Below, piece after piece: positions 17,222 to 64,000 of a stretch of 64,000 bases of DNA. The first letter of the stretch is position 1; every line of letters starts with the position of its first letter. This stretch comes from Lagopus muta (Eukaryota; Chordata; Aves; Galliformes; Phasianidae): NCBI RefSeq assembly GCF_023343835.1, contig NC_064435.1, positions 68,086,134 to 68,150,133 of the forward strand, written 5' to 3'. The position numbers and the translations under genes were made by a program. A model generated the notes under the pieces. The model saw only the letters and a program-made list of their open reading frames with translations, had not been told where the DNA came from and did no database searches.

Positions 17222-17445
17222 CATCACAGAATCATAGAATCATAGAATGCTCTGGGTTGAAAAGGACCACAGATGATCATCAAATTTCAACCCCCTGCTG
17301 TGTGCAGGGTCTCCAACCACCAGATCAGGCTGCCCAGAGCCACATCCAGCCTGGCCTTGTATGCCTCCAGGGATGGGGCATCCACAACCTCCTTGGGCAA
17401 CCTGTTCCAGTGCATCATCACCTTCTGTGTGAGGGCTATTCTGTA
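17222..17445 (-). mobile_element. CR1 3' end fragment
   Basis: It starts with repeated AGAATCATAGAATCATAGAA, the reverse-complemented CR1 tail, and continues with GGTTGAAAAGGACCACAGAT and a CTTGGGCAACCTGTTCCAGT segment. It closely resembles the copy at 21,650, so both probably belong to the same CR1 subfamily. Confidence 0.9.
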
Positions 17446-21649: not shown

Positions 21650-22065
21650 AATCATAAGATCATAGAATCATAGAATGGTCTGGGTTGAAAAGGACCACAA
21701 TGATCATCTAGTTTCATCCCCCTGCTATGTGCAGGGTCACCAATCACTAGACCAGGCTGCCCAGAGCCACATCCAGCCTGGCCTTGAATGCCTCCAGGGA
21801 TGGGGCATCCACAACCTCCTTGGGCAACCTGTTCCAGTGCATCACCACACTCTGTGTGAAAAACTTCCTCCTAATAGCTAACCTAAACTTCCCCTGTCTC
21901 AATTTAAAACCATTCCTATCACATCCCCCCCATGTAAACAGCCGTTCCCCCTCCTGTTTATATGCTCCATTGAACTCTCTCTTCAAAGTTCTTTTTAACT
22001 TTCCCTTATGGTACCTGTTGGCTATTGGTTCCACGCTGATATTAGGAACAACTGTTCTGAGTTGA
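21650..22065 (-). mobile_element. CR1 3' end copy
   Basis: The reverse-complemented octamer tail (AATCATAGAATGGTCTGGG) is followed by about 400 bp of CR1 3' region, including CTTGGGCAACCTGTTCCAGT and AAAAACTTCCTCCTAATAGC. It is in minus orientation, downstream of UPP1. Confidence 0.9.
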
Positions 22066-23201: not shown

Positions 23202-31065
<7,864 letters not shown>

Positions 31066-31979: not shown

Positions 31980-32345
31980 TTCACCTCCGCACGGGACGGA
32001 GGGAACGCTCACAACCCCGCTCAGCACCGGCCCGGCATCCTTACGGCGGCGCAATGGGGGCGGCCGCAGCGGAGCACCGCGCTCGCTCCACTGGGACGCG
32101 CGGACCCCGCGCCCGCCTGTGCCGCCCCCTCGTGCGGCGATCTCACCTGGGCGCCACGGGGTAGCGAACACCACTCGGAGCGTTCCCACAGACCCAGCCG
32201 TGCCGCCTCCCGGCAGCGGCAGCGCTGCTGGGCTGAGCCGCCCCGCCCCGAAGGAGCGCGGCACCGGGCGCGGTTAACTCCCTGCGTGCCGGCTTAGCGG
32301 GGTTCGGGGCCGGCTGAGAGGTGTGCGGCGGTGGCCGAGGTGTCC
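31980..32345 (-). promoter_or_regulatory. UPP1: UPP1 GC-rich promoter and non-coding first exon
   Basis: A CpG-dense block interrupts otherwise AT-rich DNA. On the minus strand a consensus donor (CCCAG/GTGAGAT, exon edge at 32147) lies within it. That fits a non-coding UPP1 exon 1 joined to the exon starting at 31077. The transcription start was not determined. Several GC-box-like GGCGGG or CCCGCC words are present. Confidence 0.65.
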
Positions 32346-32384
32346 GGTAGCTTCGACTCTCTGCCTCGAGGCTGCGGGTTCAGC

Positions 32385-32945
32385 ACAGCTCCCTCAGCCT
32401 TTCTTCATAAGAGAGATGCTCCAGCTCTCTGACCATCCTTATGGCCCTCCTCTGGACTCACACTCTGTTCCATTTCTTGTTCTGAGGCCCCAGACCTGGA
32501 TGCAATACTCGAGATGGAACCTCACAAGGGCAGAGCACAGTGGGGACAATCCCCTCCCTCTCCCAGCTGCACCCCTTCCCCCTCCCACCCCCTTTTGGCA
32601 CAGCCCAGTTGGCCTTCCAGACTGCAGGTGCACACTGTGGGCTCATGCCCAGCTTTTCATTCACCAGAACCCCCAAGTTCATTTCCACAGGTCTGCTCCC
32701 AATTAGATTCTTCTCCCAGCCTGTACTCATATCTGGGATTGCCTCAACCCGAGTGCAACACCTTGCACTTGGTCTTGTTGAACTGCATTATGTTCATGTG
32801 GGCCCACATTTCAAGCATGTCCAGGTACCTTTAGGTAGCATCCCTTTCTTCTGTTGTGTCAGCTGCACCGCTCAGCTTGGTGTCATCAGCAAACCTGCCG
32901 AAGGTGCACTCAGTCCTACTATGACAGTGATAAAAATACTGTGAA
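32385..32945 (-). mobile_element. CR1 LINE fragment upstream of UPP1
   Basis: In minus orientation it reads as the end of the CR1 reverse-transcriptase region (CTCCTCTGGACTCACACTCT and TCGAGATGGAACCTCACAAG in plus-strand form) up to the KLSGAAD-like segment near 32,880. The usual 3' octamer tail is missing. It begins within about 50 bp of the CpG-rich UPP1 promoter block. Confidence 0.85.
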
Positions 32946-32984
32946 GAGCACCAGCTCTAAGATGTGGCAGTGATGCGTCCAGCC

Positions 32985-35335
32985 ATGATGCAGGAAACAA
33001 GGGACTCCCTGGCCTCTTATCACCAGGTAGAAGGAGGGAACTTGAGATACAGGGGGAGACAAAAGCAGGTAGAAGACAGAAGGTAAAGATAGATTTCTGC
33101 TCAGGGCAGCAGGTGAATCCCCTCCCTGCCTACCCAACCCTCTGAGATGCCCTTATACAACAGATATGAGGCTCAGGAATTTGATGGACAGGCAAACAGT
33201 GGTGTAGATGAAGGTCCATCCAGGCTGAAGGAGTCACCCAGGGCAAGTCAGCCTGTCCCCTAAAACAGAGCCACCTCTGTCACGAAGAAAAGAAGGGTTG
33301 TTGTCATGGGCGCCTCCCTTCCAAGGAGAATAGAAGGCTTGATATGCTGACCAGACCAAACCCATAGGGAAGTTTGCTGCCTCCCTGGGGCCCAGGTAAG
33401 AGATATCACTAGAAAACTCACTAGCCTAGTACAGCCTTCTGACTATAATTAGTTTTCCATGTCAGCAAATGAGGTAGCAAGAAGTCCCAGGGCAACCCAA
33501 AGGGAGTTTGGGGCCATGGGGCAAATGTCTAAAGCAATGGGGGGTGGGTAGTATTTTCCTTTACCCTTTCAGTAGAAGAGAACAATACTGAACAGGCAGA
33601 CCCAGCTGATACATGTGTGGCTTCAATGCTGGTGTAACCAACAGAATTTGAGGTTTTTTCTTCACAGGATAGTCTATGCAACACCAGGTCTGCAGGGACC
33701 TGACTGGATGTACCTTTCTCAGAAGGGGGAAAGGATTCTTGCACAGAAGTTACTGGGGCTTTAAACTAGATTTGAAGAGGCAAAAGGATAAAACTAGACT
33801 CGGCAGTGATAAGCTACAGGATGACATGCCAAACTTCAAGAGTGTGACAGTGAGATCCTTCAGTCTGCTCCACAAGGTGCTGGGTACAACAAATTTGAAA
33901 TGTTTCTACATGAATGCACATAGCATGAGGAACAAGCAAGAGGAGGTAGAAGCCTTGGCTCAGTCCCAACAACATCATTGGCACAAGTGAAACCTGGTGG
34001 GAAGAGTACCATGTCATGATGGATGACTTGTGTGTCATTCTTGGCCTTCAGCAGGGACAGGCAAGGCAGGGGCTGGTGCTGTGTGAGGGAGGAGCTGGTT
34101 ACAGAGCTCGTAGTTGGTGATGACACAGTTGAGAGCCGCTGGTTAAGGATTAAGGGACAAGCAAATAAAGCAGATGTCACCGGGTGAGTCTACTATGGAC
34201 CGTCCAGCAAGGATGACAACACTGATGAATTATTCTTTAAGGAACCATGCAAGATTTCTAGACCAAACCACCCTTGTTCTTATGAGAGACTGCTCTGAAA
34301 GTAATGCTTCCCATTTAAGGTGTCGCCCTGTGATGTAAGAGGCACATATTGATGGTATGGCAGTAGAGGTTGAACTTTCCTGCCAATATTATATTTTATT
34401 GCTGCGTGACAGATGGCAACAGAGAGGCAGTCTGATAGAATGGTGTCTGACAAGGAAGTGCATATGGAGCATAGGTGTGTCATCAAATTCCTCCATGCAG
34501 AAAAAATAGCACCCACTGACATTCACTGACACTTGCTGAATGTTTATGGAGAACAAGCAGTGGATGTGATTACAATGAAGTGGTAGGAGGTGCATTTCAG
34601 CAGTGGCAACAGCAGGTCACTTCCACTGGTGCAGAATTTTACAACAGCAGCATGCATGCTCTTGATCACCACTGATGAAAATGCATAGTTAATGGTGGAG
34701 ACTGTGCTTTGTAGCTGAGAATTTGCTCTATAAAATAGTGCTCTTTCTATCTGTTATATTTTCCACAGAAATAAACAGGAGGAATTACTTTCGGAGTAAC
34801 CTATAGAGGTTTGTTACTTGTAAAGAGAAAGGGTCTCACGGATGGAGCAGCAATTGTAGAAAGCCTTAGTTATAGTGATCATGAAGCAGCTGATTTTTAA
34901 ATCTTTGGAGATAGGACAAAAACTGCCACCAAGACTTCAGCTCTGGATACAAGGAAAGCAGATTTCAGGTTGCTCAGGGAACTAGTTAATGAGGTCCCCT
35001 GGGAAACAGCTTTTGAAGGCATTGGGGCCCATCAGTGCTTCTCACTTTTTAATTACAACCTCTTGAGAGCACAGGAACAGGCAATTCCAAAGGGTTGGAA
35101 GACAAGTATACAGGACAGAAGGCTAGCCTGGAAGAATAGGGTTCTTCTAGAACTTAAGTAGAATAAGAAAGTGTATGACTGCTGACAGCAAGGTCAGAAG
35201 ACTATGGAGATGCCATCTGCCATTGTAAGGAGAAAAATCTGTGCAGCCCAGACTAAGCTACATAAGAGTTGAAGCTGGTCAGTACAGTTCTGGACAGCAA
35301 AAAGAGCTTCTAAAAACTATGTTAACAGTAAACAG
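32985..35335 (+). mobile_element. CR1 LINE 5' half, interrupted by a mariner-like element
   Basis: The plus strand carries decayed CR1 ORF1 text (RRKEGLLSWAPPFQGE near 33,290 and a Q-K-G-K-G motif near 33,715). The start of the ORF2 endonuclease follows (YMNAHSMRNKQEEVEALAQS near 33,910), then after the inserted element the linker to the reverse transcriptase (FRLLRELVNEVPWETAFEG near 34,970). It stops near 35,335, before the catalytic FADD region. It has many stops. CR1 copies are normally 5'-truncated, so a 5' half without the 3' half is unusual. Confidence 0.8.
34282..34804 (+). mobile_element. Mariner-like DNA transposon, internally deleted
   Basis: Both ends show the same terminal repeat in opposite orientation: CTCTGAAAGTAATGC at the left and, inverted at the right, ACTCCGAAAGTAATTCCTCC. 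Between them the plus strand encodes a broken mariner transposase N-terminus (MEHRCVIKFLHAE, then LLNVYGEQAVDV) and the C-terminal remnant near 34,690, with the central catalytic part missing. It resembles the chicken Galluhop-type mariner family. It sits inside the CR1 at 32,985-35,335 and is therefore younger. Confidence 0.75.
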
Positions 35336-48229: not shown

Positions 48230-49933
48230 CTGGTAATATCATTCTGAAGCAACAGAAAGGAAAATATTGATGGTGAAATTCAACTGTTAGTGACCCTTTG
48301 TCAAGAAACTAACAAATCTAGCCAACTTGAAATTAAGTGAAATGCTGCACTTCTTCACAAAGATAGAAGACAAGGATTCTATATTCCAGGGGACAAAGCA
48401 TGGGACATTTCAGGAGTTCCACATTCAAAAAGAGAAGGCCTTGATGTAATATATGAAACATCATTCAAGCTGTCCCATTAAAACGGGGGACTGCACATCT
48501 TCATGCAGCAGACCAGGTCTAGAGCACCAAGAGCAAGAGTCATAGTCAACAACTGAAAGCAGTTAAGTCTTCTGTTACCCTTCCTTCTCAGCCATCAACA
48601 ATAGCAAAGAAAGCTTTCTGACTTGTCCATTTTTAGGTCTCTGTTTGTAAAATAACCCCACCCGATCCTCCATTCCACCCTCCTTTAAAAAATAAAATAA
48701 AAATCAAGCCATCTCCAAATATATTCTTTTCTCTGCTTCCTGTGCACAAAAATAAGCAATTACACAAAAACAGAAAAGAAACTGCACAACTCCTTGAGGG
48801 GAAAACAATGGCAGACAGGGAAGAAAAAGACACTCTAAGGAATTGTGCTAAGAAACACAGGAGACTTACTGAGATGACTCCAAATAGAGTTATGTAAGTG
48901 TACCACACTGTCTTAAGGCAGGTATCTTCCTCAGGTGCTAGTACATAATCATCATGCTGACATGTGCCTAGGAAAAAGATTGCCTGTAAGAAATTATTTT
49001 CCTTGCATTAGGGGCGAAGAATCATTACAGTGTTTTATTTCACTACAGTAATTGGTCTTGATATTGGTTGGTTTGTTCAGCAATAGTACATTAGTTTAAG
49101 AACCAATATATTTGTTTAGCAAAAGGAATCTGTCAGTTATAGTTCTAAAACTTTCCATTTCAATTTTAGTGGGTGCATAGTCTTGTTTTCCTCAGTAATT
49201 TTGCACTGTGGACATAACAGAATACTTTTAACCTTCACCTCAATGATTTTGCCTCACAAGAAGCCATAATAGAATACTTTCATCTTTTGCACGCAGTAGC
49301 TGCAAGAACGTCTTCCTTGGATTCCACATTTGTTGTTTTAAAAGTGGTTATGGCCTAATAAGCAATGGAAAATTTTCCAAGCTGGGGAGAAGTGATTCAA
49401 AGTTAGCCATAGCCCTCAGTGATGGTGCTGATGATGGAAAATGGGGAAGAAGTAGATAGGCACTCGACCAGCCCAGGTTCTATTGAGCATGCCCAAAGGG
49501 ACATTAGCATAGATATTAATGAGTCCTTGGACAAAAGGATGAATATGTAGACCTATGTACTGCGTGCATATGTCTTAACTGTTTAAATATAGAACCTGAG
49601 CTCTGAAAGAGCACGCTTGCTGCTCAAGTCGCCCAGTACCATGAGGAAAAAAGGAACACCACTTTCTAGCACCACATTGGAGTCAGAGAGTTTTCTCCCC
49701 AGATTTCGGATGACAGTCTGTCAGAATCTTCTCTACCTAATTCTGTCAGAGCCCTCATTCTTTTTTAATTTGCTGTATTACTGCTCACCTGACTCTCCTT
49801 CTTCTAAGTGCTTGAATTGAAGGGCATACTGCAAAGCAATAAACTTCCGAGGAGAAATGCCAACAACAGATTCAAAAACTTCTGTAACACGGATAAACCA
49901 TCCCAATTGAACAGGCTAAATTCTGGGACTCAC

Positions 49934-50160
49934 CTCCGGTTTATAGTGCTGAGAGCCTCAGGGCGGTAGAAACGCTCGGGCCGGGATCTCAGCTGTCAGC
50001 TCGCTGCAACCGCTGTCGCCGCCGCTTCCCGTCCCCTTAGCAACGCGGCTGCTCCAAAGCCAACGGCGCACCGCCCAGCAGAGGCGGGCACCAACGGTCC
50101 AATCCCGCCCCGCAGCCCGAGGCTGCTATATAATCTGATGGAGAGCGGCTCCGCTGAAAG
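49934..50160 (-). promoter_or_regulatory. C7orf57: C7orf57 GC-rich promoter with X-box
   Basis: A consensus donor (CCGGAG/GTGAGTCC, exon edge at 49934) at the left of a CpG-rich block marks a non-coding first exon. It would join the exon whose acceptor (TTGCTTCAG) lies just above 48243, leaving 14 nt of leader before ATG 48229. GTCCCCTTAGCAAC at 50031-50044 fits the RFX X-box pattern (GT-CC-2N-RG-AAC). A CTATATAAT word at 50,126-50,134 could be a TATA box for plus-strand transcription, which I cannot test. Confidence 0.6.
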
Positions 50161-50834
50161 CGGCTTGGCATCTCGTTGGACAGCACGTTGAGCATCAGTC
50201 AGCAGTGCAACCAGGCAGCCAGGAATGCTAGCCGTAGCCTAGGGTGCGTCAGGCCCAGCAGTGCCAGCAGGGCGGAGGAAGCACCCTGTAGATGGGGAGG
50301 CATGTTGTGAGCGTACAACAGTGGAAAAGCTGTGCGACAGTTTGGTGGAATCCTTATGGGAACCACATGCCAGGTGGAAGTAGCCCACAGTGTGACAGCC
50401 AGCATCAAGACATTCCCCTTCGTCTTCTTTATCTGTGTGTGAGACTTCCCTGGTTTTCCTTGCGTTCCACAGCAATCTTTGGGACAAAAGGAGTGTTGGG
50501 AGAAAGTAAAATACCCCTGATACCCACTAAAGGGCTGGCAGTGGCAGACCAACAATGGACCATTATGGTGGTAGAAAGCTAGATGACATCAGAGATAGCC
50601 AAACAAGGCCATGTCTGTTGGGAAATCGCTGGGAGTGGACAGGATAACAAATTTGGGAACATAATGAATATCTAATACATTTGAAAACATAACCTGTTCG
50701 TGAACAATCAGCCAGTGACCGTTCTTGGAGAGTTATCCCAATGCCATCCCAGCTCTGCCAACAATGAGTACTTTGCTTAACAGTAACAAAGTGCTGCTGT
50801 TAAGTTTATACACATAGATTTCTTCAAATCAGTA

Positions 50835-51085
50835 CACTGCACTGGTGCGGCCCCACCTCAAACTCTGAGTTCAGTTTGGGGAATCACAGGACAAAAAAAA
50901 AAAAAGCCAGCATGGAGTACTGAATGGCTTCAGTAAGTAGCTGTGCACACTGGAATCAATGACTTGCATGCCAGAGGACCATGTTGGCCCACTGCTAAGT
51001 AACAAAAATACAGGAGCACACAATTGGGCTCAGTGATCTTGAACGTCTTTTGCAACCTAAATGATTATTTAATTCTCCTGAAGCC
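50835..51085 (+). mobile_element. Heavily decayed CR1 fragment
   Basis: CTGGTGCGGCCCCACCTCAA and TTCAGTTTGGGGAATCACAG match the ORF2 end of CR1. After a gap, AGTGATCTTGAACGTCTTTT and GATTATTTAATTCTCC resemble a worn 3' tail. The match is weak but consistent in order. Confidence 0.5.
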
Positions 51086-51149
51086 TGGAAACATAAGGAC
51101 AAGCACAAATGCTTGGTATTCCCAGCATAAGTACTTGTTCTCTTTTCTC

Positions 51150-51466
51150 TTAACAATTACTCAGATGGACTAAAGAGGCTCCACATGGGAAAAGTTATTT
51201 ATTCTGAAGTAAACCAGATAGCTTTCTCCTGACCTTACTGTCATGGTGGAGTACCTTCATGATACACACAGGTGTACTCTGGGTGGCTCTGGTGGCTCAG
51301 CAGTTGCAGCCTTATGTTACTGATGAACCCAGAGCACTGGAGATGCTGTCTGCGTGGTACGCTGTTGCTGGAATTTCAGTGGTTTATCATAACTGCAGTG
51401 GGAAAGATGGCCACAAGCAACTTGATGAAGACATGTCCCTATCTTTGTGGGAAGGGCCAGCACGAA
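51150..51466 (-). pseudogene. SUN3-like pseudogene fragment with two exons fused
   Basis: On the minus strand it starts with CWPFP, then GHVFIKLLVAIFPTAV, then after a stop and frame damage FISNIRLQLLSHQSHPEYTC and VYHEG. This is the SUN domain of the neighbouring SUN3-like gene. The exon corresponding to 55870-55700 runs directly into the one corresponding to 54553-54374, with no intron and without the intervening 93-nt exon. The junction falls at a shared GAGCACT-like word, so a deletion is more likely than retroposition, since downstream non-coding sequence is also shared. Internal stops show it is dead. Its right end coincides with the duplication boundary. Confidence 0.8.
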
Positions 51467-53600
51467 TACCTCTCAGAGGCTTACACCACAAGCCTGCCTC
51501 CCGCTCACGCTTTCTGATACTCCTGAACCTCTCAACCTCCTCCTGGAGGGCACACTCCACATCCTTCCAGCACTCCGCTCCACACTCTCTACAAGTTTCC
51601 TGTCTTTCTTGCGCTGAGGAGCCCGGGACAGGACACGGTACTCCAGATGCGGCCTCACCAGGGCAGGGGAGAGGGGGAGGATCACCTCCCTTGACCTGCT
51701 GGCCACGCTCTTTGGAAGGCAACCCAGGATCCCACTGGCCTTCTTGGCCGCCTGAGCACACTGCTGCCTCATAGTCAGCCGACTGTCCGCCAGTACACCA
51801 AGTCCTTTTCCGTCAGGCAGCTTTCCAGCCACCCCTCCCCAAGCCCGTAGGGTTGCCTGGGGCTGTTGTGACCAAAATGCAGGACCCGACACCTGGCCCT
51901 ACGGAAACTCATAGAGTTTACCGCGGCCCAGCGACCCAGGTCCCTCTGTAGTGCCTTTTCCCCCCTCTGGCAGAGCAACGCTCCCTCCCAACTTGGAGTC
52001 ATCCGCAAACCCACTGAGGGTGCACTCAATTCCCTCATCAAGATCGGTAATAAAGATGTTAAACAGAAGCGGCCTCAGTACCGAGCCCTGGAAGACACCA
52101 CTCTGGACTGGCCGCCAACTGCACTTAACTCCACTGACCACAGCTCTTTGGGCCCGGCGTTTCACCCAGCGGAGCGTACGCCCATCCAAACCGTTGGCAG
52201 CCGCCTCTCCACAAGAATGTTGTGGGGGAGGGTGCCAAAGGCGTTACTGAAGTCCAGGCAGACCACATTGACAGCCATACCTTCATTCATAAAGCCATGC
52301 TGATTGGGCCTCACCCCCAGCTTACCATTAACTGGTCCGTGAGGCCACCCGAGATGATCCATTTCATGGCCTTCCCTGGCACCGAGGTGAGACTACAGGT
52401 CTGTAGTTACCAGGATCACCTTCCCAGCCCTTCTTGAAGATGGGTGTCACGTTTGCCAGTCCAATGGGACGTTTCCAGTTAGCCAGGACTGCCAAAAGAG
52501 GGTGGAGAGTGGCTCGGCAACCACATCCGCCAACTCCCTCAGCACCCTAGGATGCAGTCCATCTGGCCCCACGGACTTGTGAGCACCCAGCTTTCAGAGC
52601 AGGTCCCAAACCATCTCATCGTGGATTGTGCAGGGCCTATTCTGTTCCCCATCCCTACCTACCGGCACAAGGGGCCGTGTGCCCAGGGAGTAACTAGTCT
52701 TACTATTAAGGACTGAGGCAAAGAAGGTGTATGGGAGCTGCTGAGTCACAGCCTGAACCACTGATTGATCGCCTGAGGCAAGGACTGACTCAGCCACAGG
52801 AGCACGGGTGGAGGCAGTTCAACTGTGTGACCCGGAGGGGTGCAGCCTGGCTCCACCTCTCCCAGGCCCCATTTGAGGGCTGACTGCCGCTGGGGAAGGA
52901 TCTCTTTCCGGAGATCCCTCCCTTTGCAGTTTTCTACTGCGAGCCTAGGCCACGGCTGAGCGTCTAATTTTTGATTCTCCCTTTCCACCACGATAATCTT
53001 TCTAATGATAAAACCCGTATAATACCATCCTAACCACGCCACTCTGCTATCTGTATGTTTGTAAATCATACAGAACAAGTACCTCAGCCCTATCCTGACC
53101 CTTGGTCACCACGTTGCCCTCAGCATCATCCAGCAGGGGATGGAGACTCTCCCTAGCCTTCCACTCGCTGCTGATGTATTTACAGAAATATTTACTGTTG
53201 TCCTTCACCTTAGTGGCCAAGTTCAGTTCTAGCTGGCCTTTGGCTTTTCTAATTTTCTCCCTGCACGGCTTCACTACGTACTCGTAATTGTCATAAGTTG
53301 CTTGCCCATTCTTCCAAATACCAAAAACTTTACTTTTGTTCCCGAGTTCCAGCCAGAGGTCTCTGTTCAGCCTGACCGGCTTCCTTGCCCGTCAACTTGT
53401 CTTCCATGACTCGGTGACGGTCAGCTCCTGCACTTTTAAAATAACTTCCCTAAAAGTATGCCCAGCCTTCCCGGGCTGCTGTGCGCTCCAGAACTGCCTC
53501 CCAAGGCACCTTCTCAACCACGGTCCAAAGGAGGCCAAGGTCTGCCCTCTGGAAGTCCAAGGGGGCAGCAGTTCCTGCTGACTCCCATCCGTGCTTCAAC
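51467..53600 (-). mobile_element. CR1 LINE ORF2 fragment, copy in unit 1
   Basis: Reading right to left on the minus strand, it covers the end of the endonuclease linker (ADLGLLWTVVEKVPWEAVLE near 53,520) and KAKGQLELNLATKVKDNSKY near 53,220. The reverse transcriptase follows, with [20 protein letters not shown] and the catalytic FADD in [10 protein letters not shown] near 52,010, then RPHLEYRVLSRAPQRKKDRK near 51,640. Several frameshifts make it non-coding. It has neither the 5' ORF1 nor the 3' octamer tail, so it is cut at both ends; the left cut is the duplication boundary. Confidence 0.9.
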
Positions 53601-53784
53601 AGGGATCGGAAAATGCAGTATCTTGGGATCACTTTGCCAACTCCCAACCAGCCGCTCCCTCCCTCCTCCTCCCCAGCAGGAGAGCAGGAGAAAAGGGAAT
53701 GAAAAGGCTTATGGAGCGAGATAGACAATAGGGAGATCTCTTAACATTTACTCTGACGGACAAAAGAGACTCAACATGGGAAAA

Positions 53785-54405
53785 GTTGAATGAATTGATG
53801 TTATATTTGATGTTAACGTTGTGGCTTTGTGATTTTTGTTGCTGATATTCCACCTCAGAAGATCACGTAAAATAGTGGGAGTTAAAGAGTTAATGTTCTG
53901 GTTCCTTGAACTGCCATTCATGGGCACGTGGGGTCCTCGGATGGGAGGGGAGGAGCGGCATTCCCGAGGACCTAGCGCGCAGAGGAAGAAAGGTGGAGCT
54001 ACTGGCAGGACACCAGCCTCTTCTTCCCACTCTTGGTTTGCCACGGAGAAAAGCACGTGCTTCCCCTGCAGTCTTCTAACATGAGATCTTGTATTTTGGA
54101 TACTTCCGTCTCTCTCATTTTGTTTGATTTTGTTGGATTCAGTAAATTCAGCTCCTCCTCAGACAGTTGCCGTTGATTCTGTTTTTGTTGGTGGGGGTTT
54201 TTTTTTTTGTTGTCAGACACACGTGTTGTCTCCCTTCCCCCTCTCCTGGAGCGCACGGCCCGCATCGTGCCTTGCCTTGTTAGTCACAGAGCCGGGGCCG
54301 GATGTGCCGCGCTGTTAGAAGGTAGGGTAATTTTTGTTGCCACTCTCTTTCGTCCCCTGGGTTTGTGCCCCTGTCACGGGCTCAGATCTGGAGACTCCTC
54401 CATGA
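53785..54405. mobile_element. Probable inserted segment of about 620 bp, unclassified (solo LTR possible)
   Basis: The pseudogene region reads CACATGGGAAAAGTT and then directly GAAGTAAACCAG, whereas here CAACATGGGAAAAGTT and GGTAAACCAAG lie about 620 bp apart. So the segment is either an insertion here or a deletion there. It contains three CACGTG words (53925, 54054, 54220) and a T run near 54,200, and has no recognisable coding content. The exact ends and any target duplication could not be resolved, so the LTR idea is a guess. The second copy is at 63,007-63,627. Confidence 0.4.
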
Positions 54406-57400
54406 AAGGTAAACCAAGTGGCTTTCCCTTAGCTTCACCGTCAGGGGCTGGATTGCCGTGGAGCCTGAACTGATACACACAGGTATAGTCCGGGTGGCCC
54501 CAGTTGCTCAGCACTCGCAGCTTGATGTAATTGATGAACCCGGAGTGCTCATTCTGCAATGAGAAAAAGAAATGAACTGTGTTTTCCTCTCTCCTCTTTG
54601 GCCACTGACAATGCAGGAGTGACACACTCACGCAACATCCTACTTCAGGCTGCCTTGCTAGGTCTTCTGACAAGCTGATAAGCTGCCATAGCGCAATCAA
54701 GACATTTCTTACCCTGCTCCACCTCTTTGGCCACGTGAGTTTTAAAGAAATAAACAGCTACCAAAAGCTGCAGCAAATACACTGCCAAGTTCTTTGCACT
54801 TGTTTTGAGTGTGTGTTCTCGCACAGAACAACACAGGGGTCGTAACTCTCATTGCTTTCTCTAGAATGTCACCCATCAGAATGGCCTCCCTGATGCTGCC
54901 CATTACTGGCAACGACAAAATCCTTGGAAAGTCACACATCCCCAGTGTGAAAGTAGCCCGCCAACAGTACTGCACCCTACGTGAGGCAGCCGCTTGTGTG
55001 CAATTGGAAGCCACCTGGTCATGGCAATTTCTGCTGCAAGTGTAGCTGGAGCTTAGCGGTGCTGTAAGCTGAAGCAGCTCTGCAGCTTAAAAGCCAGAAG
55101 GAAACAGAAACAGCCCAGCAGTCCGGGCATATGCAGGCAGTATAGAGGCAGCAGCAGAAATGCAAGAGGGCCCCCATACGCCTCAGGCTTGGAAGCTTTT
55201 CCCCAGCCAACCGCGGTTCCCCTCTCCCACGCTTCACGCCCCTCTTTGTAACCTTACCTGCAGCTGGAAGGTCTGACTGGGATCCTGGCCTGGCGTGAAG
55301 GTGAACTCTCCTAGCAAAGTTCCTTCCTCGTCACCTTCTTCCTGCAGGCCCTACAGGAAGACAGGGGTGGAGAAAACAGAACAGTGGGATGCGCTGCCGG
55401 AAGAGGATCACAAAGCCCCACAGGGCTTTCTGAAGCAAAGGTGGTCTAGCACCATCCACTGTGCCACTTCCCTTTCCCTCTGCCTCTCAAACTACCAACT
55501 CGCCCCAAGAGCGGGAAACCTTCTTTGCTGTGCTACCTTGGACAAAAAAGGAACGCTGTGGAAATGGAGCAACTCTGAGGAGCTTGTTACTCGCCCTGTG
55601 CAGGGAAGAACTGCACGCAGCAGCCCTCTTGGATCTGCAACCACCCTCCACGTCAAACGCTACGCAAAACTACCGCCACAACCCAGAGGAATCACTTACA
55701 TAGACAGCAAAGTCCTTGGGAGCACTGGAGGTGCTGTCTGCATGGTAGGCCGTTGCTGGAACTCCATGGTTTAACGTAACTGCCGTGGGAAAGATGGCCC
55801 TGGGCAACTTGATGAAGACGTGCCCTTGGCTTCCTGGGAAGGGCCAGCAGTTACCTGGCTGATTGTCAGGCTGAAAAAAGAAGAAGAAACAGCGTTCATG
55901 TGCAAAAGAGCGTCCTGGCTGAAAATCCTGCTGCAGCATCAGGGGCTCTGCAGGTGCACTGGCCCATCAGCTCTGCTCCAAAGCACAGGCATACGGGCAT
56001 GGCGGTGAGCTGGGTGCACAACCTGCAGAAGCTCTTGGGCTCCTTCTTTTGTGGGGCAGCTTGCAAAAAATAAAAAAGAGGGGCTGCTGTGGCTGAAAGG
56101 CACCTGCCCGGGGCAAAGAAGGGCCCACCTGCACGAGCCTTTCCTGCAAGGGGAAGCAATCGCTCCCTCTCATCCAGTCCCACCCCCTTCCCCCGGCACC
56201 AGCCAGGGCTCTGACTTGTGCCGGTAGCTCAGGAGCAGTGCCAGGATGGGCTGGCAAACACAACATGGGGCCCTCCTGCAGTGCACGCCCTCCGTGCCCT
56301 CTGGGGTTCATTAAGAGCCCCAGCGTTCTCGCAGCCCAGATCTCTCGTGGCACCTTATGGGTTCCCCTTCAGTGCCGGCCAGACAGCTCCACAATGGCTG
56401 GGAAGACAAGCAAGCTAGCCTGGCAGAAGCTTCCACAGAGGACCTGGGGCAGTCTGGCAGAAGAAATTCTCTGCCGGGATACACAAGAGGGGAGTAGGTC
56501 CTCGCAAGAAGGGGTGAAGACAAGGGTAAAGGCAACCCTCAGCAGGGCGTTTGGCCCCCTCTGCCCCGCACCATTCTTCCTCTGTTTCACACTGTTCTTA
56601 CCTCAAGAATAATCTCAGGAGGCCTCATATATGGTGTCACCAGCAACGAGTACCAGAAGACTTTCCCGCTTCCAATCCAGGAGGGAGAAGTCTTGGAACG
56701 AACGATAGCGGCGCCTGCAAATAAAAACACGGGCACAGTGGTCAAGCAAGGCCAAGAGGAACCAAGGGCTGCTGACTCTGTTTTCCACATGAACAGCTGC
56801 GCAGAAATGCCGGCTGCCTTTGCACTGTCCTCTTCAAAAGAGTTTCAAAGGCAGCCATACATCCCCAACAGTGATATTCCCCTCGTTCTCACTTGCCGTA
56901 TCCCTCTGCAACACAATGCAGGGACTCGCTCAGCTATCCTAAGGGGCCACATAAACTGACAGCCAGCTGAGCAGTCACGTGAGAAACAACACCAAGTAGG
57001 AGTAGCGCTTTTCAGATGTGCTCCAGCCCGCTGAAGGCTCTCTCAGCAAGCACATTCTCAGGGCACAAGGTGGCCATTCACTCCTCACCCCTTCTCCCCT
57101 ACCCTGCCCAAATGCCCGTCCTGTCAAACTGGACAAGACGCCCTTTGGAACCACCATCTGTGGTCTGGTTGTTTCTACAGCTTAACGGCACCTGAAGTTT
57201 TGCTGGCATAATTACGCATCTGGAATGGGCTTTCTTCCAGCTTCTCCAGGACTTGATTGATCATCTCTTGAACAGCCTGGGAAGAAAGACAAAGGAGAGC
57301 GCTCGTCAGAAGGAAAAGAAAAGGGAAAAGAGTTGCCTCCCAGCTCCCCTACAAAGCCTGCCAAAGCAAACTCGGCTGCTCCACTTGGATGTAATTCACA

Positions 57401-59192
57401 CTGCCTGGGAGTTGCCTGCGAACCTCCAGAGCTCTACTATGACCATCTGGCACGGGAACAGAGAGGCTGCTCACTCCAGCACACTGGACACGGATGCGGC
57501 ACGAATGGGCTTTTCCTGTCGAGATGCCCCATGACAGGCAGGCTGCGCTGACAGTCCTGCTGGCCAGGAGATGGGGCTCGAGTCAGGCACGAGGCAGGGA
57601 TTGCCCAGAGGTCACCACAACTGCTGCAGGCCAGCCACACACAGAGAGTTAACTTAAAGCAGAAGACAGAGCTTGCCTACTGCAATGGGGAAGAAAGGCA
57701 AAACGCAGAAGGAACTAATGCCTGCCAAGCCTCGGGCTAACATGGCCTTTGAGATTCCCATCACGGGAATCACCGTCAGCTTAGGCTTCGGGCAGACCTG
57801 GGGCCGTGCGAGCTCAAGCCACCAAAAGAGACGGTATCCACGGAGCAAGGGCCCTGAAACCAGAACAGCCTTCAGACTGGATGCCCCACGGGGAGGCTGA
57901 AACACAGCGTCTCCTGTGCATCTGCACAGGCCCCAGGCACCCAGGGCAGCCAGGCTCAACTCAGGGTGCTGGCTTACAGGTCTTCCAGGGGAACCTGCCA
58001 CCTCATGCACAGCAGCAGGTGCAGGGAAGGACTGACAGAGAGCAAGAAACAACTAAGGCATCTGAAATTCCCATCAGAGCTCATTCCTTTCCCCCACAAG
58101 AGCTCCGGAGCAACAGAGAAAAGGACCGATGGTGATGCACCAGCATTTCTTCCTGCTGGACAAGCCTTTTAGCTGTCTGTGACAGGGAACGCTAGCGAGA
58201 TATAATGCCACAGTGGGGAAAGAACTCTCTCAGCAGAGCTTTTTGCAATGTCCTCTTACCTCGCCGGTAAAGCCTGGGAGCTCATTTCTCTTCAGGGCCT
58301 CGTGGAGAGCACGCAGGGTGATGTCCTTTGCTCCCCATTGCAGGAAACGAAGCTGCTGCTGGATCTTGTCGAGCTCTTGTTCCACCCTCAGCATTTCCAG
58401 ATCATCACCCACCAGCCTAGAGACAGCAGGTAATTAATGGAGAGAGCGCACACAGCTGTCTTCTCACAAGCCGTGAGATGTGAGGCAGAGAACGAGCCTC
58501 ACTCCGCGTGACGACAGGGTAACCGAGGTTTAATAGAGAGTTGACAATACTGGTTGGCAAGCTCCAAGAGCTCCTGACCGAGAAGCTGCTTCCTGGCTTC
58601 CTGGCTAACTTTGGGGGAACTAACGGACATGGAGAGATAGCAGCTCGAATGGGGAAGGGGAGAAACTCGGGGCCTTGGTCACAGAAGTTGGACTCAGGTA
58701 ACAAGTGGTCATGGACAAGGGGCCGAGCTCCTCTAAAGAAGAGTCCAGCCAAAGGGAGATTCTTTTCTTACCATGAAGTCTTTTTTTCCACTGCCCTTGA
58801 GCCTCCAGCAAGACTTCCATCGCAGTAAAAACCTGCCAGGAATTCCACAAAGCTCTCAATAAATCATCTCTATTATTGTTCTGCCTTGGGCTGCCCACTC
58901 CCCTGTCCCTGGGCAGAACAAATTGTTGGAGGCTTCCGAAAGAAGCATCCTCAAATCAGAGCTCTACAGAGACTCACCGAAGGACACCACAGCCACGGTG
59001 CACAGCAGCACCAGGGAAACTGCCTTCCAAGCCTTAGGTTGCCTACAAAGAAGGAGAAGCGTGGTGAAGAATGGTGAAGCAGGCCGTATCTGTACAGTGC
59101 AGAAGACGACTACGGAGCAACAGATGTTTGAAACTTGGGAAGGAACCATATCCTTACCAGTCCCCACGCCTGCCTTGCTGTCGTTCCGCCAT
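54374..59192 (-). CDS. SUN3: SUN3-like SUN-domain protein, complete copy
   Basis: SUN-domain proteins span the inner nuclear membrane and bind KASH proteins in the LINC complex; SUN3 acts in spermatid head shaping. Nine coding exons are 59192-59158 (MAERQQGRRGDW), 59042-58978 (membrane helix KAVSLVLLCTVAVVSF), 58832-58772, 58416-58260 (coiled coil DDLEMLRVEQELDKIQQQLR), 57276-57192 (VQEMINQVLEKLEESPF), 56714-56602 (GKVFWYSLLVTPYMRPPEII), 55870-55700 (NCWPFPGSQGHVFIKLPRAI; SSAPKDFAVY), 55350-55258 (GTLLGEFTFTPGQDPSQTFQ) and 54553-54374 (YIKLRVLSNWGHPDYTCVYQ). All phases join: 960 nt, 319 residues, with the SUN domain in roughly the last 190. Human SUN3 is about 357. The SUN3 name rests on its neighbour C7orf57; SPAG4- or SUN5-type paralogy is possible. 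No poly(A) signal was seen. Confidence 0.86.
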
Positions 59193-59500
59193 TTCTCCGA
59201 AGCACAGCGACAAAAGACGCGGCTCGAAGCACAGCGACAAAAGACGCAGCTCGAAGCACAGCGACAAAAGACGCAGCTCCAAGCACAAGCGACAAAAGAC
59301 GCAGCTCAAAGCACAAGCCAAAAAAGATGCAGCTTGAAGCACGAGCCACAAAAGATGCAGCTCGAAGCACAAGCCACAAAAGATGCAGCTCGAAGCACAA
59401 GCCACAAAAGACGCAGCTCGAAGCACAAGCCACAAAAGACGCAGCTCGCAAGGAGTGAGCCAAACCCTGTCCAACAGCTATGCCGTCAGGACCGAGAGTG
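59192..59500 (-). promoter_or_regulatory. Inferred SUN3-like 5' region containing a minisatellite
   Basis: The start codon at 59192 is preceded on the minus strand by TTTCGGAGAA-type sequence and then directly by the tandem repeat. No TATA box was identified. An open frame continues upstream through the repeat, so an N-terminal extension cannot be excluded, but its repetitive Leu/Cys/Phe content argues against it. Confidence 0.4.
59199..59447. repeat. Minisatellite, nine units of 27/28 bp
   Basis: The first three units are 27 bp (core GAAGCACAGCGACAAAAGAC plus GCAGCTC). The later six are about 28 bp (core GAAGCACAAGCCACAAAAGA plus CGCAGCTC), with a few substitutions such as GATGCAG for GACGCAG. 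Its first base is 7 bp from the SUN3-like start codon. It is not CRISPR: there are no unique spacers and the host is a vertebrate. Confidence 0.92.
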
Positions 59501-59799
59501 GCCAAGGGCGGGGACAAGCTGCCTCAGTGCTGAGGGCCCTTTGTGACTTCACAATGGCCAGTGATGTCACCGCAGAGCAGCCAGCGCCATGTTTTGAGGG
59601 ACAGGGAACAGGCTTTGCACCTCCTGCCTGCAGGGGAAAAGATCCTACAAGGTCAAAAAAAACCAAACACCTCCTGCCCAGCAGCCTGCTTGGTAGGATT
59701 TTGCTGAAGGGGAACGGGCTGGGAGCTACAAGCCGCCTGCCTTTTTCGGTCCCTGCTTTTGATGCCCTGTACATCAGATGTCTCACTCCGGGTACCCAG

Positions 59800-60688
59800 A
59801 CTTTTCCAATGCTTTCCTATATCTGTCTTCCTACTGTCAGCCAGTGCTTCATTACAGCCAGGGCACAAGCAGATATGAAGGACCACAGATGCTGGTAGAA
59901 AGCACCAACAGGAAAAAACTGCACGTAGTTCTCCCTGCTCGTGAGAATTTCCACGCACGTACATGCACGTCAGTTGTTGCCTTTTATAAGATGTCAAGTA
60001 AATTATCCCGTGGTCAAAAAAACACCAAAATTCTTCTGATTGCACCAACCTCTAAGGCATTTGTTTGTGAGGTGGCTTTTGCTGATCCTCTTTGTATCCT
60101 TCCGCGCCACGGAAGGGGCAGAAGAAAAAACCACTTGCACACCCGCTCCATCAACTACCCGCGCAAGTCCTCTGAAGTCTTTTTTCATAGTCCTCATGCT
60201 TTTCTCAGTGACTTCATCACTGCCGGCCTGAACTGTCAATAAGGGGTAATAATCAGAAGGGCCAGTGAGACCAGGAAGTTTCCCAGAAACGGCCCTGACC
60301 CGCGCCCCAAGGAGGCAGCAGTCCTCCCTACTGGTAGGGTCCAGCTGACATGCAGGGCCCTCCGCTCCTCTCAGCAGGGAGCTGCCAATGACAGCCACCC
60401 TTCTTTCCTTCCGGTGGAGGCAGTCTTGATGCGTGAGGTCGACTGCTTCGCCCGGGACAGCCTCGCAAGTGGACCTTCCCCCACACCCTGATCCACCTCT
60501 CCCTCGAGTTCCGGGGCCTCACGCCTATTTTGCAGAGGCACCTGGGGAACCGAGCTTGGTCGGGACGGCGCTTGCCTACATCGCCTGGCCGGGACCCATT
60601 TCCACTCCTCCTCTTCTCTCAAACTGCCTCGCTCTGCTCGGCAACGGCAGGGGGCCCACCCCTGCCTGATGAGTATCACCCCCACGTC
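59800..60688 (-). mobile_element. CR1 LINE ORF1 fragment with SGNH-hydrolase-like text
   Basis: The minus strand reads AVIGSSLLRGAEGPACQLDP, then CCLLGARVRAVSGKLPGLTG, SDYYPLLTVQAGSDEV and FRGLARVVDGAGVQVVFSSA near 60,390-60,110, then LRGWCNQKNFGVF near 60,040. This is the GDS-L-like (here GSSLL) esterase-like part of CR1 ORF1, nearly open for about 130 residues. The element loses continuity near 59,980 and its 5' side is cut at the tandem junction. Confidence 0.82.
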
Positions 60689-62822
60689 TACCTCTCAGAG
60701 GCTTACACCACAAGCCTGCCTCCCGCTCACGCTTTCTGATACTCCTGAACCTCTCAACCTCCTCCTGGAGGGCACACTCCACATCCTTCCAGCACTCCGC
60801 TCCACACTCTCTACAAGTTTCCTGTCTTTCTTGCGCTGAGGAGCCCGGGACAGGACACGGTACTCCAGATGCGGCCTCACCAGGGCAGGGGAGAGGGGGA
60901 GGATCACCTCCCTTGACCTGCTGGCCACGCTCTTTGGAAGGCAACCCAGGATCCCACTGGCCTTCTTGGCCGCCTGAGCACACTGCTGCCTCATAGTCAG
61001 CCGACTGTCCGCCAGTACACCAAGTCCTTTTCCGTCAGGCAGCTTTCCAGCCACCCCTCCCCAAGCCCGTAGGGTTGCCTGGGGCTGTTGTGACCAAAAT
61101 GCAGGACCCGACACCTGGCCCTACGGAAACTCATAGAGTTTACCGCGGCCCAGCGACCCAGGTCCCTCTGTAGTGCCTTTTCCCCCCTCTGGCAGAGCAA
61201 CGCTCCCTCCCAACTTGGAGTCATCCGCAAACCCACTGAGGGTGCACTCAATTCCCTCATCAAGATCGGTAATAAAGATGTTAAACAGAAGCGGCCTCAG
61301 TACCGAGCCCTGGAGGACACCACTCTGGACTGGCCGCCAACTGCACTTAACTCCACTGACCACAGCTCTTTGGGCCCGGCGTTTCACCCAGCGGAGCGTA
61401 CGCCCATCCAAACCGTTGGCAGCCGCCTCTCCACAAGAATGTTGTGGGGGAGGGTGCCAAAGGCGTTACTGAAGTCCAGGCAGACCACATTGACAGCCAT
61501 ACCTTCATTCATAAAGCCATGCTGATTGGGCCTCACCCCCAGCTTACCATTAACTGGTCCGTGAGGCCACCCGAGATGATCCATTTCATGGCCTTCCCTG
61601 GCACCGAGGTGAGACTACAGGTCTGTAGTTACCAGGATCACCTTCCCAGCCCTTCTTGAAGATGGGTGTCACGTTTGCCAGTCCAATGGGACGTTTCCAG
61701 TTAGCCAGGACTGCCAAAAGAGGGTGGAGAGTGGCTCGGCAACCACATCCGCCAACTCCCTCAGCACCCTAGGATGCAGTCCATCTGGCCCCACGGACTT
61801 GTGAGCACCCAGCTTTCAGAGCAGGTCCCAAACCATCTCATCGTGGATTGTGCAGGGCCTATTCTGTTCCCCATCCCTACCTACCGGCACAAGGGGCCGT
61901 GTGCCCAGGGAGTAACTAGTCTTACTATTAAGGACTGAGGCAAAGAAGGTGTATGGGAGCTGCTGAGTCACAGCCTGAACCACTGATTGATCGCCTGAGG
62001 CAAGGACTGACTCAGCCACAGGAGCACGGGTGGAGGCAGTTCAACTGTGTGACCCGGAGGGGTGCAGCCTGGCTCCACCTCTCCCAGGCCCCATTTGAGG
62101 GCTGACTGCCGCTGGGGAAGGATCTCTTTCCGGAGATCCCTCCCTTTGCAGTTTTCTACTGCGAGCCTAGGCCACGGCTGAGCGTCTAATTTTTGATTCT
62201 CCCTTTCCACCACGATAATCTTTCTAATGATAAAACCCGTATAATACCATCCTAACCACGCCACTCTGCTATCTGTATGTTTGTAAATCATACAGAACAA
62301 GTACCTCAGCCCTATCCTGACCCTTGGTCACCACGTTGCCCTCAGCATCATCCAGCAGGGGATGGAGACTCTCCCTAGCCTTCCACTCGCTGCTGATGTA
62401 TTTACAGAAATATTTACTGTTGTCCTTCACCTTAGTGGCCAAGTTCAGTTCTAGCTGGCCTTTGGCTTTTCTAATTTTCTCCCTGCACGGCTTCACTACG
62501 TACTCGTAATTGTCATAAGTTGCTTGCCCATTCTTCCAAATACCAAAAACTTTACTTTTGTTCCCGAGTTCCAGCCAGAGGTCTCTGTTCAGCCTGACCG
62601 GCTTCCTTGCCCGTCAACTTGTCTTCCATGACTCGGTGACGGTCAGCTCCTGCACTTTTAAAATAACTTCCCTAAAAGTATGCCCAGCCTTCCCGGGCTG
62701 CTGTGCGCTCCAGAACTGCCTCCCAAGGCACCTTCTCAACCACGGTCCAAAGGAGGCCAAGGTCTGCCCTCTGGAAGTCCAAGGGGGCAGCAGTTCCTGC
62801 TGACTCCCATCCGTGCTTCAAC
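60689..62822 (-). mobile_element. CR1 LINE ORF2 fragment, copy in unit 2
   Basis: Counterpart of 51467-53600 at offset 9222, with the same frameshifts and truncations. The single noticed difference (61315) changes VFQGSVLRP to VLQGSVLRP on the minus strand. Identical damage in both copies shows that the element decayed before the duplication. Confidence 0.9.
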
Positions 62823-63595
62823 AGGGATCGGAAAATGCAGTATCTTGGGATCACTTTGCCAACTCCCAACCAGCCGCTCCCTCCCTCCTCCTCCCCAGCA
62901 GGAGAGCAGGAGAAAAGGGAATGAAAAGGCTTATGGAGCGAGATAGACAATAGGGAGATCTCTTAACATTTACTCTGACGGACAAAAGAGACTCAACATG
63001 GGAAAAGTTGAATGAATTGATGTTATATTTGATGTTAACGTTGTGGCTTTGTGATTTTTGTTGCTGATATTCCACCTCAGAAGATCACGTAAAATAGTGG
63101 GAGTTAAAGAGTTAATGTTCTGGTTCCTTGAACTGCCATTCATGGGCACGTGGGGTCCTCGGATGGGAGGGGAGGAGCGGCATTCCCGAGGACCTAGCGC
63201 GCAGAGGAAGAAAGGTGGAGCTACTGGCAGGACACCAGCCTCTTCTTCCCACTCTTGGTTTGCCACGGAGAAAAGCACGTGCTTCCCCTGCAGTCTTCTA
63301 ACATGAGATCTTGTATTTTGGATACTTCCGTCTCTCTCATTTTGTTTGATTTTGTTGGATTCAGTAAATTCAGCTCCTCCTCAGACAGTTGCCGTTGATT
63401 CTGTTTTTGTTGGTGGGGGTTTTTTTTTTTGTTGTCAGACACACGTGTTGTCTCCCTTCCCCCTCTCCTGGAGCGCACGGCCCGCATCGTGCCTTGCCTT
63501 GTTAGTCACAGAGCCGGGGCCGGATGTGCCGCGCTGTTAGAAGGTAGGGTAATTTTTGTTGCCACTCTCTTTCGTCCCCTGGGTTTGTGCCCCTG

Positions 63596-63775
63596 TCACG
63601 GGCTCAGATCTGGAGACTCCTCCATGAAAGGTAAACCAAGTGGCTTTCCCTTAGCTTCACCGTCAGGGGCTGGATTGCCGTGGAGCCTGAACTGATACAC
63701 ACAGGTATAGTCCGGGTGGCCCCAGTTGCTCAGCACTCGCAGCTTGATGTAATTGATGAACCCGGAGTGCTCGTT
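63596..63775 (-). CDS. SUN3-like, last exon of the second tandem copy (partial gene)
   Basis: This is the exact counterpart of 54374-54553. The one difference, at 63773, changes AAT to AAC (both Asn), so the 59 encoded residues, ending in MEESPDLSP, are identical. The acceptor and the following intron are intact up to the window edge. Whether the upstream exons of this copy are also intact lies outside the window. Confidence 0.85.
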   Translation of the reverse strand, partial: NEHSGFINYIKLRVLSNWGHPDYTCVYQFRLHGNPAPDGEAKGKPLGLPFMEESPDLSP

Positions 63776-64000
63776 CTGCAATGAGAAAAAGAAATGAACT
63801 GTGTTTTCCTCTCTCCTCTTTGGCCACTGACAATGCAGGAGTGACACACTCACGCAACATCCTACTTCAGGCTGCCTTGCTAGGTCTTCTGACAAGCTGA
63901 TAAGCTGCCATAGCGCAATCAAGACATTTCTTACCCTGCTCCACCTCTTTGGCCACGTGAGTTTTAAAGAAATAAACAGCTACCAAAAGCTGCAGCAAAT

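Follow-up and report, generated by a model that had tools for sequence, protein, structure and literature searches.

A near-identical repeat with a SUN-domain gene in Lagopus muta is probably the left edge of a SUN3-like tandem array

The right end of the window (the whole 64,000-nucleotide stretch of Lagopus muta DNA that was analyzed) runs into a second copy of sequence that has already been presented once, and the copied sequence includes part of a SUN-domain gene. This raises the question of whether a testis-type gene has been multiplied in the genome or whether one genomic copy was placed twice in the assembly, together with the question of which SUN gene is involved. The repeat probably marks where a genuine tandem array of SUN3-like genes begins on the left, with one minus-strand gene in each unit of about 9.2 kb.

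Direct comparison at an offset of 9,222 bp found 3,310 of 3,312 bases identical (99.94%) between positions 51,467 to 54,778 and 60,689 to 64,000, with two substitutions and no insertions or deletions. For the seven complete 200-bp bins that cover 50,001 to 51,400, just left of 51,467, identity at the same offset was between 0.215 and 0.315, which indicates that the left edge is sharp and that the match is not due to chance. BLAST recovered the same pair as a single match of 3,318 bp and 99.88% identity (51,461 to 54,778), the first six bases of which lie left of the edge and include two mismatches. The counts of the four letters total 64,000, so that the window contains no N and the junction at 60,688/60,689 carries no marked gap. 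The first-pass annotation had described a near-identical 9,222-bp tandem duplication; the repeat, the offset, and the two substitutions were all reproduced, whereas a complete second unit of 9,222 bp was not, as the window stops after 36% (3,312 bp) of it. The coordinates of the units and of the features within and around them are given in the table.

Features of the repeat and its surroundings. Positions are those of the window.
Feature	Position	Strand	Basis or remark
First repeat unit	51467..60688	.	9,222 bp; length inferred from offset to second copy
Second repeat unit, start only, ends at window end	60689..64000	.	3,312 bp, 99.94% identical
Exon, coil-like region	58260..58416	-	Splice sites, joined frame; first base belongs to preceding codon
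Exon between coil and SUN domain	57192..57276	-	Splice sites, joined frame
Exon, start of SUN region	56602..56714	-	Splice sites, joined frame
Exon A, SUN domain	55700..55870	-	Splice sites, joined frame
Exon B, SUN domain	55258..55350	-	Splice sites, joined frame
Last exon, end of SUN domain, stop codon	54374..54553	-	Splice sites, joined frame
Last SUN exon, second copy	63596..63775	-	Protein identical to that of first copy
Exon candidate, hydrophobic transmembrane-like segment, 65 bases	58978..59042	-	Splice signals; gene assignment inferred, outside 265-aa frame
Degraded partial SUN copy	51146..51463	-	Exon A, last exon, and downstream pieces; in-frame stops
Reverse transcriptase remains	51899..52243	-	Pfam RVT_1 1.8e-5, 25 bits, below curated cut-off of 29.6
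28-bp minisatellite, 9.1 copies	59198..59448	.	In first unit, upstream of hydrophobic-segment exon candidate
Uridine phosphorylase 1-like exon frame, neighboring gene	26251..26598	-	PDB match 1.5e-20
Possible uridine phosphorylase frame	25415..25723		Weak PNP_UDP_1, 17.1 bits, below cut-off of 25.1

The two substitutions fall in different parts of the repeat. The first (52,093 A / 61,315 G) lies in CR1-like remains, where the codon reads F or L depending on the copy, and the second (54,551 A / 63,773 G) changes AAT to AAC in the last SUN exon and is synonymous, as both codons encode Asn. In an attempt to polarize the first difference, a related stretch at 2,641 to 2,811 (122 of 171 bases identical) had a third base, T, at the matching site. 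Defects common to the CR1 pieces of both copies had been taken to show that the unit was copied as a block; they are expected at 99.94% identity and add little to that argument.

The first unit contains on its minus strand six C-terminal exons that join into an unbroken frame of 265 amino acids with no stops, which omits the first base of the exon at 58,416 to 58,260. All six have AG acceptors, the first five have GT donors, and the phases match. The frame matched the Pfam Sad1_UNC family (PF07738) at 2.9e-40 (137.8 bits; cut-off, 22) and 10 distinct PDB sequences at an E value of 0.001 or better (range, 2.4e-49 to 6.1e-43), of which seven are named SUN2, two SUN1, and one, the best, MKIAA0668 protein. 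These matches bear out the proposal that a SUN-domain gene is present in the unit. In the second copy the last SUN exon (63,596 to 63,775) is the only one visible.

Upstream of the SUN domain, the exon candidate at 59,042 to 58,978 is hydrophobic and the exon at 58,416 to 58,260 is coil-like, both judged by the appearance of the sequence. The protein has its SUN domain at the C-terminus, preceded by what looks like a short coil and probably by a membrane segment; it probably belongs to the testis-type LINC-complex proteins that reside in the inner nuclear membrane. A simple scan for N-terminal exons, assuming GT(A/G)AG donors, lengths of 30 to 250 and 30 to 400 bases, and direct splicing, did not find the first exon (one 35-base candidate was not accepted) and gave six candidates, none accepted, for the exon between the hydrophobic and coil-like exons. 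The minisatellite in this part of the unit could serve as a length-variable marker by which to tell units apart.

The identity of the gene was approached through its neighborhood. The protein of the unit presumably resembles SUN3. At a distance of 25 kb from the SUN gene, the frame at 26,251 to 26,598 had eight distinct PDB matches, of which uridine phosphorylase 1 was the best (1.5e-20); a uridine phosphorylase without a number (5.1e-19) and UPP2 (7.8e-19) were close to it, and the assignment of the neighbor to UPP1 depends on this single exon. Of three other frames judged by eye to be exons of this gene, the one at 25,415 to 25,723 had a weak PNP_UDP_1 match below the cut-off, and the two at 27,549 to 27,854 and 28,127 to 28,432 had no Pfam match. 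The kilobase from 32,001 to 33,000 is GC rich (0.61) and may be the promoter region of this minus-strand gene. In humans, the genes tabulated for a gain at 7p12.3-p12.2 are TNS3, PKD1L1, HUS1, SUN3, C7orf57, UPP1, ABCA13, and CDC14C (PMC10048180). The occurrence of UPP1 near SUN3 in that list, together with the uridine phosphorylase 1-like exon found here, fits an assignment to SUN3. The SUN gene and the uridine phosphorylase-like gene are both on the minus strand here, whereas human SUN3 and UPP1 are on opposite strands, which argues against a simply conserved order. The earlier label of SUN3-like stands in part: the neighboring gene and the human list speak for it, while the nearly equal score of UPP2 and the differing strand relation do not.

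A degraded partial copy of the gene ends three bases short of the edge of the first unit. Its pieces are in the same order and on the same strand as those of the intact gene, with 213 of 254 bases identical over four ungapped blocks (84%), that is, 16.1% different, or a Jukes-Cantor distance of 0.18. This count omits parts whose alignment was limited to blocks of at most 8 bases (51,197 to 51,259 and one base between blocks), so the true divergence is larger than 16.1%. The presence of this old remnant beside the unit indicates that the SUN gene had already been duplicated at the locus when the present repeat was formed. The remnant passes from exon A to the last exon without aligned intron sequence, the join lies inside both exons, and exon B is missing. 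On inspection by eye, the adjacent sequence showed a short A-rich stretch but no poly(A) run. It may have originated either by DNA duplication or by retrocopying.

The unit also carries pieces of mobile elements. The reverse transcriptase remains at 51,899 to 52,243 are taken to be CR1, with an apparent continuation on the minus strand at 51,473 to 51,898; a further piece at 53,047 to 53,391 is presumably CR1 ORF2-like and a frame at the unit's right-hand end (60,003 to 60,518) presumably CR1 ORF1-like, both likewise on the minus strand. None of the last three had a Pfam match. Over the 10 frames submitted to Pfam, three matched, two of them below the cut-off, and seven did not match. No Rfam family reached its gathering score in the window, and no tRNA genes were found. 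At 49,901 to 50,300, where the AT-rich left part of the window turns to the GC-rich right part, there is a spike of GC and CpG (0.56 to 0.71 GC in 100-bp bins, with 13 CpG in one of them). Positions 50,139 to 50,271 are weakly similar, in inverted orientation, to the CR1-like stretch at 51,695 to 51,827 (62%; E value, 2.8e-9). Farther left, two 160-bp direct repeats at 17,273 to 17,432 and 21,700 to 21,859, 93% identical and 4.4 kb apart, are perhaps pieces of a transposon.

Whether the repeat is a real array depends on how well a false duplication would account for the same sequence. In that case one genomic copy would have been entered twice, either as two haplotypes or as a repeated contig end, an explanation that we consider less likely but plausible. 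The divergence between the copies is 0.06% (95% interval, 0.007 to 0.22%), which overlaps low heterozygosity. If the copies were two haplotypes, a heterozygosity of 0.1% would leave at most two differences over 3,312 bp with a probability of 0.36, so that a false haplotype duplication fits an animal of low diversity; at 0.2% and 0.5% the probability falls to 0.04 and 1e-5, and the two differences are then fewer than expected. Same-haplotype false duplications are reported to be often about as long as a sequence read (PMC8081667), and 9.2 kb is a plausible length for a long read. An erroneous join would be indistinguishable in the sequence from a true one, no more than 3.3 kb of the second unit is visible, and the first exon of the gene was not found. 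Against a false duplication are the junction free of N, the old SUN duplicate already at the edge, and the situation in the chicken, in which 31 co-orthologs of mouse Sun3, Sun5, and Spag4 have been reported, compared with one or none in zebrafish; 11 of the 31 are co-orthologs of Sun3 (PMC6609395). This multiplication and the remnant are the reasons for favoring a real array.

The very low divergence would also follow from a simple recent duplication to two copies, a copy-number variant restricted to a single individual, breed, or species and outside any longer array. In its favor, the left flank and the unit share no significant similarity over their final 500 bp and so give no sign of an exchange between flanking repeats. 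The gene is multicopy in the chicken (PMC6609395), which counts against this reading, and we regard a two-copy variant as very improbable. We infer instead a genuine array of more than two units.

If a real tandem array is accepted, its identity of 99.94% may have come from recent copying, from unequal exchange, or from gene conversion between units. Exchange between flanking repeats was considered as the origin and is not supported: comparison of the final 500 bp of the left flank with those of the unit gave a best E value of 0.48, the unit's own end being used as the true right flank lies outside the window. A weak direct match between 49,741 to 49,792 and 60,180 to 60,231 (52 bp, 69%; E value, 0.003) is at an offset other than 9,222. 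Because the ends of the flank and the unit are unlike, a joining of unlike ends is the likelier origin, and the first duplication may have occurred in this way and been followed by unequal exchange. By homology, the protein may act in spermatids as SUN3 does at their posterior nuclear envelope, and extra copies could increase its dosage or stay similar through gene conversion.

In a bolder version, which we consider doubtful, the window touches the edge of a long SUN3 array in which gene conversion homogenizes many near-identical testis LINC genes; CR1 pieces would lie at the ends of the units, and the fossil copy would mark an earlier round. Such an array would be the avian equivalent, on an ordinary chromosome, of ampliconic sperm genes. 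A real array of any length would supply a defined unit, an edge, and an older remnant from which the multiplication reported in the chicken could be dated, and would make the effect of that multiplication on the shaping of the sperm head testable from the locus. A false duplication would counsel caution in counting testis-gene copies in assemblies of bird genomes.

A literature search on SUN3 copy number or tandem duplication in birds returned no title on this repeat unit among the matches listed. In viral_contigs, from which records of the window's own or a very near genome may be left out, the 42 bases across the junction were not matched exactly and none of 16 pattern stretches found with the SUN protein was confirmed.

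Multiplication of SUN genes is already known in the chicken at the level of Ensembl genes, and the window is most likely the edge of an array of this known kind. The chicken Sun3/Sun5/Spag4 group resembles the window in that its SUN-domain genes are multicopy; the testis expression is known from the chicken, and a putative SUN3-type neighborhood is seen here. Relative testis expression was 20 to 50% for the 11 chicken Sun3 co-orthologs and at least 50% for the 20 copies of Sun5/Spag4, in counts of Ensembl release 88 genes that may contain errors of their own (PMC6609395). The passages of that report on the co-orthologs provide gene counts with no unit length, array edge, or remnant, unlike the locus described here. 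A chicken SUN3-like gene, LOC428505, adjoins a marker at 80.83 Mb on chromosome 2 (PMC9690689). In mammals, SUN3 is a LINC-complex protein of spermatids. SUN3 has been placed together with nesprin-1 at the posterior nuclear envelope, where the manchette microtubules make contact (PMC10112980). Mammalian SUN3 shares with the gene here a SUN domain that follows a coil-like region and a uridine phosphorylase 1-like gene nearby. The human table entry names SUN3 once, whereas in L. muta the repeated part comprises at least the left third of a unit, in which the gene's 3' end lies. The strand relation to UPP1 differs as well. The SUN1 and SUN2 structures represented among the 10 PDB sequences contain a SUN domain homologous to that of the gene here, which is compact and has a short coil, whereas SUN1 and SUN2 are longer.
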